Assembly: GCA_021807085.1 (NCBI GenBank)
Contig: JAKAPM010000007.1
Location: 1-40,377 of the forward strand
Length of the DNA stretch: 40,377 nt
Direction: 5' to 3'
Source: Nanobdellota archaeon
GTDB taxonomy: Archaea > Nanobdellota > Nanobdellia > Parvarchaeales > Parvarchaeaceae
Shown here: piece after piece, positions 9,452 through 11,090 of the stretch
Layout of the letters: the number at the start of each line of letters is the position of its first letter
Position numbering within the stretch: position 1 is the stretch's first letter
Translations under genes and position numbers: made by a program
Notes under the pieces: model-generated
Databases searched by the model: none
The model's input: the letters and a program-made list of their open reading frames with translations, nothing else
Told to the model about the DNA's origin: nothing

Positions 9452-9542
9452 GGGCCCATAGTCTAGCCTGGATAGGACTGATGGCTTCGAATGCCTCAGA
9501 TGGAAGCAACCATCTGACCTGGGTTCAAATCCCAGTGGGCCC
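9452..9542 (+). tRNA. tRNA-Arg(UCG) with 18-nt intron at 37/38
   Basis: Acceptor GGGCCCA/TGGGCCC, D stem GTCT/GGAC, anticodon stem GATGG(9480-9484)/CCATC(9510-9514), loop CTTCGA+A with anticodon TCG at 9487-9489, T arm CTGGG-TTCAAAT-CCCAG. CCA is not encoded. Confidence 0.88.
9491..9508 (+). other. tRNA intron (bulge-helix-bulge type)
   Basis: CTTC(9485-9488) pairs with GAAG(9503-9506) as a 4-bp central helix. It is flanked by 3-nt bulges GAA(9489-9491) and CAA(9507-9509), with symmetric cut sites. Confidence 0.8.
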
Positions 9543-9552
9543 TCATTATGCT
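9540..9552. repeat. Left direct repeat CCCTCATTATGCT (candidate target-site duplication)
   Basis: 13-nt exact match to 11078-11090; the first 3 nt are the tRNA-Arg 3' end. Confidence 0.7.
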
Positions 9553-9558
9553 GGGATA

Positions 9559-9583
9559 ATGCTATCTAAGAGAGATGGCACTA
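9559..9583. repeat. Left terminal inverted repeat ATGCTATCTAAGAGAGATGGCACTA
   Basis: 22/25 matches to the reverse complement of 11048-11072. Confidence 0.72.
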
Positions 9584-9661
9584 ATTTTATGAGAGTAATT
9601 CAAGTCCAGTAATAAAACAAAAAAGTTGCTTTTTAGTACTCTTAGAAACTAATTTTGTTTC

Positions 9662-9946
9662 TCATAATCTATGAAATAGCGACAAAAAGAAATTAAAAAC
9701 GACATTACGTTTTGGCCTTTCTCGTCTACCTGCTGCAGCGATTATAGTACTGTCTGCAATTATAAGGAACTTTTTACATATTGTTTTACGCACGTCTAAG
9801 TCTAAATTTTCATTTATATCCCAAGCATCATGAGCAAATTGAATCGCTAATTTAACTGTCTTAATTTCATTTTCAGTTAAATTAACATTTTTCAATCTGC
9901 TTTCAAAATTATATGATTTTATTATGTCGTCTATTCCTTCTTCCAT
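9662..9946 (-). CDS. Hypothetical protein inside the insertion
   Basis: 94 aa ORF, MEEGIDDIIKSYNFESRLKNVNLTENEIKTVKLAIQFAHDAWDINENL...; no recognised family. Confidence 0.5.
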   Translation of the reverse strand: MEEGIDDIIKSYNFESRLKNVNLTENEIKTVKLAIQFAHDAWDINENLDLDVRKTICKKFLIIADSTIIAAAGRRERPKRNVVFNFFLSLFHRL

Positions 9947-10060
9947 ACTTTTATAGTTCTAAGATTTTCCATTTGCTCAAATCATTTGAATTGTATTGGT
10001 AAATCTTTTCATCATCTCAGCTTAAAAATGCCATTTTATTATTTATTGGTAGATTAAGGA

Positions 10061-10648
10061 CTAGTACCTTCTTGTTTTCAGCCTTAAAATCCCATCGTTG
10101 CTTATTTTGGATTTTTTGCATATGTAAACTATCTCCTGTCCTATGAAAACCGGTACGGGAAACCTTTTATTTACTTTGGGGATTTGCAGTCCGAGGGAAA
10201 TCCTTTTTTCTATTTTAAAGCCGTTGTGGCTAAAAAGCAGCGTGAGATTTCTCGGAGGAATCACTGAGATATGCTCTTTTGCAGTCGGCAATCTCGTCGG
10301 AAAAAAGAGATTCGTAAACAGAGTAAACGGAGAAAAGGGGTTTGGAACTGTTATTATCAGCAGACCGCTTGAATTAAGCACGCGATGACATTCTCTGAGA
10401 AAGGCGCTTGGATTTTCAAGATGCGCTAGAACGCAGCCGACTGTAATACTGTCGAAACTGCCTGATTTGAATTTCATGTTCTGCGCATCCATTACAAAAA
10501 CTTTTTTGTAGTTTTTAGGTTTTTTGCTTTTCTTTATGTCAATGCCTACAACATTGTTTAAGAAAGCATTGCCCCCTCCTACACCAACATCGAGAACTTT
10601 TCCTCTTGCGAATTTGGCTATTCTTTTATTTCTATTTACCCAGAACAT
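10061..10648 (-). CDS. Class I SAM-dependent methyltransferase (type 11-like)
   Basis: KVLDVGVGGGNAFLN (motif I), VVGIDI, GSFDSITVGCVLAHLENPSAFLRECHRVLNSSGLLIITVPNP. Confidence 0.85.
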   Translation of the reverse strand: MFWVNRNKRIAKFARGKVLDVGVGGGNAFLNNVVGIDIKKSKKPKNYKKVFVMDAQNMKFKSGSFDSITVGCVLAHLENPSAFLRECHRVLNSSGLLIITVPNPFSPFTLFTNLFFPTRLPTAKEHISVIPPRNLTLLFSHNGFKIEKRISLGLQIPKVNKRFPVPVFIGQEIVYICKKSKISNDGILRLKTRRY

Positions 10649-10652
10649 ATAT

Positions 10653-10823
10653 TCAGCCGTTTATTGCCTTCTTCTTTAATTCTTCCAATTGCTGCGAAAG
10701 AAGTATTGTTTGTCCGGAAAATATCTTTATCCTCCGATCCATTTCTGTCATTCTGCCTGCAATCCCACTCTCCTTTATTACTTCCTTAAAAAGTGCTTCT
10801 ATCTTTTCGGTTTCCACTACCAT
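10653..10823 (-). CDS. Small ORF (56 aa), absent from the supplied track
   Basis: My reverse-strand translation: MVVETEKIEALFKEVIKESGIAGRMTEMDRRIKIFSGQTILLSQQLEELKKKAING*. It stops 4 nt before the methyltransferase start and is charged/helical. Confidence 0.55.
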   Translation of the reverse strand: MVVETEKIEALFKEVIKESGIAGRMTEMDRRIKIFSGQTILLSQQLEELKKKAING

Positions 10824-11047
10824 ATATAATCTCTCATATTGTATAATAAGAGAAGTTTTTTCCGAATATAAATAGATTTTGAAATGCTTGCAAGGATGAA
10901 ATCAAAGGACATCGTTACCGATGAAATTAAATTATTGAACTGGTAGCGCATGGAAGAATGCAATTCACCCTCGAAACATATAAATTATCTTCCACAGATT
11001 TTTAGTTCACGTTGACGAGGGTTGTGCGTCTAAACACTTTAACACCT

Positions 11048-11072
11048 TAGTGCCATTTCTTTGAGATAGCAT
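11048..11072. repeat. Right terminal inverted repeat TAGTGCCATTTCTTTGAGATAGCAT
   Basis: Reverse complement matches 9559-9583 at 22/25 positions. Confidence 0.72.
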
Positions 11073-11077
11073 ATCTC

Positions 11078-11090
11078 CCCTCATTATGCT
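11078..11090. repeat. Right direct repeat CCCTCATTATGCT
   Basis: Exact 13-nt copy of 9540-9552. Confidence 0.7.

Follow-up and report, generated by a model that had tools for sequence, protein, structure and literature searches.

Casposons are transposons driven by Cas1, and their Cas1 transposases, the casposases, have been proposed as the ancestors of the CRISPR integrase. Solo terminal inverted repeats (TIRs) have been suggested to be a step toward CRISPR arrays. To our knowledge, the casposons described so far are few in number, and they are large and self-contained elements. The casposase of Aciduliprofundum boonei requires the leader TCAAATC 8 bp upstream of the segment that is duplicated, plus CC at the start of this segment (PMC6614799). 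For Methanosarcina mazei the duplication measures 14 bp, consisting of the last 4 bp of the tRNA gene and 10 bp further (PMC6977970), and the 31-nt TIR of its casposon MetMaz-C1 starts with GGGATA (PMC10359463). The deterioration of casposons is already known as well (PMC4046053). As far as PMC6977970 relates, citing Krupovic et al. 2016, M. mazei also has solo TIRs, casposon ends of 19 or 31 bp with no casposase gene and nothing else between them. In the same species an engineered mini-casposon, composed of TSD-TIR-cargo-TIR-TSD and devoid of cas1, was moved in vivo and in trans by the chromosomal casposon (PMC10359463).

The locus described here belongs to a tiny acid-loving archaeon. The stretch of DNA analysed (the window, 40,377 nucleotides) is an entire contig of a 675-kb, 24-contig, 91%-complete archaeal assembly. 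Its segment 9553-11077, enclosed by two copies of CCCTCATTATGCT, is very probably a non-autonomous casposon derivative, a member of a family spread through the genus, which would have been placed in trans by a casposase and appears to carry captured chromosomal genes. The target and the borders are as follows:

9452-9544, forward strand: target gene, tRNA-Ser (CGA), by ARAGORN and Rfam (RF00005, 50.3 bits), with its last paired base at 9542
9525-9531, forward strand: TCAAATC in the T arm of tRNA-Ser, the casposase target motif, read in the sequence, exactly 8 nt before the duplicated segment
9540-9552, forward strand: left copy of the target-site duplication, CCCTCATTATGCT, overlapping the tRNA 3' end, from the sequence
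9553-9583, forward strand: left terminal inverted repeat, GGGATAATGCTATCTAAGAGAGATGGCACTA, type A, 31 nt, by TIR similarity search
11048-11077, reverse strand: right terminal inverted repeat, outer end slightly decayed, by TIR similarity search
11078-11090, forward strand: right copy of the target-site duplication, CCCTCATTATGCT, from the sequence

Most of what the first-pass annotation had read at these borders was borne out: the direct repeat of 13 nt is real, the 25-nt inverted repeats inside it, ATGCTATCTAAGAGAGATGGCACTA (9559-9583) and the complement of 11048-11072, match at 22/25 positions, and the AT-rich insert of 1.53 kb has a G+C content of 34.7% against 49% and 48% in the left and right flanks, with the composition shifting at the boundaries. 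The tRNA had been taken for tRNA-Arg, which is wrong. The full TIR comprises 31 nt (GGGATAATGCTATCTcagAGAAATGGCACTA), and its left end opens with GGG (GGGATAATG) at 9553, as an alternative reading of the duplication had proposed; the 10-nt duplication of that reading does not hold, the best description being 13 nt with a decayed right end. The ambiguity arose because the tip of the right TIR has been altered, with GGAGATATGC.. in place of GGGATAATGC.., while the inner sequence is unchanged. Chance was assessed with 100 first-order Markov simulations of the window, scored for 13-mer repeat pairs and inner inverted repeats; these contained on average 3.2 pairs of 13-mers per sequence and in no case such inverted repeats inside them, against one case in the real window. 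The Rfam scan gave tRNA genes and no other match.

Like the Family 2 casposons AciBoo-C1 (A. boonei) and MetMaz-C1, the window family targets the 3' end of tRNA genes. The duplicated segment begins with CCC at 9540, and TCAAATC (9525-9531) stands 8 nt upstream of it, the same as in AciBoo-C1 (PMC6614799). The 31-nt length of the TIR and its GGGATA start are shared with MetMaz-C1 (PMC10359463), as is the 14-nt duplication that the family makes from the last tRNA bases and 10 nt beyond them (PMC6977970); the window itself has an exact repeat of 13 nt together with the altered right tip, most relatives are spaced at 14 nt, and casposons as a superfamily have duplications of 14-15 bp. The family consensus TIR matches that of MetMaz-C1 at 20/31 positions in an ungapped alignment, a score reached by 0 of 20,000 shuffles. 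Target and spacing thus equal those of characterised casposases (PMC6614799, PMC6977970), and the casposon-like habit that had been suspected for this insertion holds. Location at a tRNA 3' end would also suit an integrative element of a tyrosine recombinase, or its remnant, but such an origin has next to no probability: the element has TIRs, its repeat of 13-14 nt places just the last 3-4 bases or so within the tRNA, a long tRNA att repeat is absent, and an integrase is found neither in the insert nor in the complete relatives described below. The earlier view that this is not a tyrosine-recombinase island is supported.

Outside the window the TIR recurs both in the same genome and in others. 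The genome itself has the TIR on contig C12 by tRNA-Lys(TTT), on C17 by tRNA-Arg(TCT) and on C23, and the repeat is present in many or most genomes of the genus, whose members are named Parvarchaeota or Nanoarchaeota in public records. By DNA similarity 16 TIR ends besides those of the window were found at tRNA 3' ends, at nearly equal distance, 13-14 nt beyond a fixed point in the tRNA 3' end. A pattern of T arm, spacer and GGGATAATG gave about 40 sites, spread over 18 genomes within the genus and many different tRNA genes. Measured from the first base of TTCAAATC, the distance to the end is 30 nt at 35 of 43 collected tRNA-anchored sites and 29 or 31 nt at the other 8, in a search biased to TTCAAATC and not to any one spacing in the range of 19-27. 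TCAAATC precedes the 14-nt duplication by 8 nt at 34 of the 43 sites, the others differing by 1 nt or by one base.

At many tRNA genes of the genus a single TIR is present and no partner end could be detected (L106, L108, L117, L120, L124 and others); these sites represent decayed, one-ended or longer elements. Such sites could be taken to mean that the TIR is a host element downstream of tRNA genes, a terminator or processing signal, beside which the insertion is coincidental. We regard this as very improbable: after tRNA-Ser(CGA) the TIR is absent in most relatives, and the same pattern, run on about 350 further genomes from the class, matched in only a few places, none of which looked like a tRNA on inspection, with controls near zero. 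Moreover, two-ended copies exist in which the duplications match within a site and differ from site to site. They include short elements of 1039, 1140, 2023 and 2284 bp with TIRs and matching duplications on both sides and with different cargo, which as read from the sequence is a racemase-like protein (1039 bp), a beta-propeller-like secreted protein (2023 bp) and a 672-aa repeat protein (2284 bp).

Some sites are more complex. Tandem insertions, two elements on one target with a copy of the 14-nt duplication between them, occur at L052 1229-1280 (G023:C7), L031 4120-4143 and L038 3660-3679. On G006:C21 (L032 3073 and 12068) two type-A TIRs face each other 9.0 kb apart, each with a different tRNA and duplication, and are probably a recombined pair. 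On G017:C4 (L116, 6860-11775) the 3' end of the target tRNA and its duplication recur 4.9 kb further in, and a degenerate TIR comes after them. Solo TIRs of the M. mazei kind (19-31 nt with the second duplication directly after) were sought in the single-ended sites, and none was convincing.

At the orthologous position the gene order phosphoesterase, tRNA-Ser, fast-evolving gene and conserved small gene is kept throughout the genus. In most relatives the tRNA-Ser(CGA) gene is followed by no insert end, showing that the segment is not always present there; casposon-type ends occur in G004 and G012, independently of each other, and those of G014 and G021 resemble that of G012. The site is a repeated casposon target. 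At an empty site the junction would read tRNA-CCCTCATTATGCT joined directly to AATGTTTTAA; in the genomes available, the proteins encoded next to the insertion are at most about 80% identical, a distance at which a strictly precise empty site is beyond reach.

A search of the genus for Cas1 gave matches in seven genomes, two of which have complete casposons. The first (G023:C7), of 10,449 bp, lies at a tRNA-Arg(GCG) gene and has GGGATAATGCTATCTC ends, the start that is common to the window TIR, and the duplication, GGCAGTTTTATCTG, is exact over 14 nt; the same target has received another element, with type-A ends, immediately beside it. The 10,449-bp casposon codes for a PolB of 865 aa, a Cas1 of 409 aa and HTH-type proteins. 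The other (G012:C8), of 13.5 kb and with a different TIR, occupies the tRNA-Ser(CGA) gene orthologous to that of the window and encodes Cas1, PolB, an HNH nuclease, a glycosyltransferase and LamG/pilin-like surface proteins. Against PDB sequences the G023 Cas1 scored 245 bits with the M. mazei casposase 6opm and 90 bits with the next chain, a CRISPR Cas1. Query residues 1-399 align with 6opm, and both casposases (409 and 392 aa) possess the C-terminal HTH extension; their catalytic E, H and D are conserved, as judged by eye. No Cas2 was found in the eight genomes of the genus that were searched, and no cas genes adjoin Cas1 in the two elements, which is not part of a CRISPR locus in either. 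The complete relatives resemble Family 2 casposons in having a casposase with C-terminal HTH and PolB; of the HNH nuclease and two HTH proteins that also mark this family, the HTH match is weak in G023 and the HNH nuclease was detected in G012 alone. They differ in host lineage, here Parvarchaeota/Nanoarchaeota, and in the many different tRNA genes targeted. In a literature search of incomplete coverage we found no report of casposons in these archaea.

Pilin-like LamG surface proteins are carried by casposons of the genus (L053 12498-15306; L032; L009 3-893) and are possibly relevant to contact with host archaea. The window contig itself begins within a gene for a LamG-type surface protein (1-890), and its first 238 bp align with the beginning of contig C23 at 90% identity.

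Copies with the window's own type of TIR retain parts of the same genes. Type-A ends (..AGAAATGGCACTA) enclose a broken PolB gene in G027:C12, G004:C13, G019:C16 and G009:C24, and the type-A element of G004:C28, located at tRNA-Ser(CGA), holds a broken piece of Cas1. In the genome of the window, a remnant of 110 aa from the C-terminus of a casposase (E 5e-45) is encoded on contig C17 (L105, 7866-8195), about 3 kb inside the TIR at tRNA-Arg(TCT); this element is a decayed casposon. A larger element with the same TIRs, which the first-pass annotation proposed to look for, is represented by PolB and Cas1 remnants in type-A copies; intact Cas1 occurs only with a TIR sharing the GGGATAATGCTATCTC start (G023) or with a different TIR (G012), and a casposon combining intact Cas1 with the exact type-A TIR of the window was not found. 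Of the two enzymes that had been proposed to act in trans, Cas1 is supported by the GGGATAATGCTATCTC start on a complete casposon and by these remnants, and a DDE transposase has no support. MITEs derived from ordinary DDE insertion sequences would likewise show TIRs and direct repeats and no transposase, but the dozens of sites fixed relative to the tRNA T arm, the duplications of 13-14 nt and the larger elements with the same ends, which hold PolB and Cas1 and no DDE gene, make such an origin highly improbable. Target, duplication length and gene content led to the rejection of both the DDE and the tyrosine-recombinase readings.

Between its TIRs the window element contains the following open reading frames:

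9662-9946, reverse strand: ORF of 94 aa, no Pfam match and no similarity to the compared loci
10061-10648, reverse strand: intact SAM-dependent methyltransferase of 195 aa, cargo (Pfam Methyltransf_23 1.1e-14, Methyltransf_11 1.9e-14)
10653-10823, reverse strand: truncated copy of a conserved gene of about 140 aa, with about 34 C-terminal codons at 10668-10769

The element thus carries cargo, as had been supposed, and no transposase: neither the ORF list, nor Pfam, nor comparison with proteins of the relatives revealed a trace of Cas1, PolB or HTH genes in the insert. At 1.5 kb and without Cas1 or PolB it differs from Family 2 casposons, and for lack of these two genes we classify it as a non-autonomous derivative and not itself a casposon. 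The methyltransferase is 63% identical to a homolog in G005:C4 and 54% to one in G014:C6, and in G005:C4 the conserved gene of about 140 aa is directly followed by the methyltransferase homolog, as in the window. TIRs sought around the chromosomal cargo homologs (G005:C4, G014:C6 and others) were not found closely flanking them, and these homologs therefore look like ordinary chromosomal genes. Since G005 has the same gene pair with no TIRs close by, the cargo appears to be a captured chromosomal segment. A complete copy of the conserved gene is present in the same genome as the window (contig C12:9018-9428), but the DNA of the fragment is closer to the copies of other species (79% identity to G020, 72% to G005 and G010) than to this copy (60%). 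Together with the low G+C content, this suggests that the DNA was captured in another species and reached the genome horizontally; the test covers about 108 nt and is good but not conclusive.

A different history of the same element is that a complete casposon shrank in place by deletion of Cas1 and PolB and never moved in its short form, the methyltransferase being ordinary casposon cargo. The 2.9-kb element of G004:C13, which retains PolB pieces, is clearly such a deletion derivative, many copies in the genus are decayed, and the window element has a damaged right TIR. In-place shrinkage and insertion of a non-autonomous element differ in history only. The latter is favoured, and we consider shrinkage rather unlikely, because the window element lacks any trace of PolB, Cas1 or HTH genes and because several neat short elements, with two TIRs, matching duplications and unrelated cargo, fit movement in short form better than separate deletions in place.

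For the favoured non-autonomous insertion, the following course may be envisaged from the sequences. A casposase with C-terminal HTH, encoded elsewhere, would bind the GGGATAATGCTATCTC.. ends and recognise the T arm of tRNA-Ser (TCAAATC, then 8 nt). Strand transfer, staggered over the last tRNA bases and about 10 nt, would join both ends (GGGATAATGCTATC), and gap repair would leave the duplication of 13-14 nt. The captured DNA, the methyltransferase gene and the tail of its neighbour, was probably acquired in a species of the genus with lower G+C content and would then have arrived horizontally. At present the window element is probably immobile, since its right TIR has decayed and no intact Cas1 or PolB was found in the 91%-complete assembly.

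Transposase-less DNA transposons that carry pieces of host genes are familiar in eukaryotes as Pack-type elements. The window element is like them in both respects and differs in its enzyme, Cas1 in place of a DDE transposase, and in its fixed tRNA target. Solo TIRs of M. mazei, as far as PMC6977970 describes them, have nothing between their ends, unlike the two TIRs around 1.5 kb with genes seen here. The engineered mini-casposon (PMC10359463) is a laboratory construct, and the window element seems to be its equivalent in nature. Within the incomplete coverage of our literature search, natural gene-carrying non-autonomous casposons have not been reported.

Copies that are complete, decayed, or short and gene-carrying occur at dozens of tRNA sites in this lineage and provide natural substrates and targets with which to address the end requirements of a Cas1 transposase, its freedom of payload and the shrinkage of casposons toward solo TIRs. 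The evidence is evenly balanced on a broader proposal, namely that casposases in nature move non-autonomous gene-carrying elements, so that in this genus Cas1 may shuttle captured host genes (a methyltransferase, a racemase-like enzyme, surface proteins) between species and park them at tRNA 3' ends, a general gene capture and transfer activity outside CRISPR. The family points to a route by which DPANN archaea of very small genome size could pass genes to one another.
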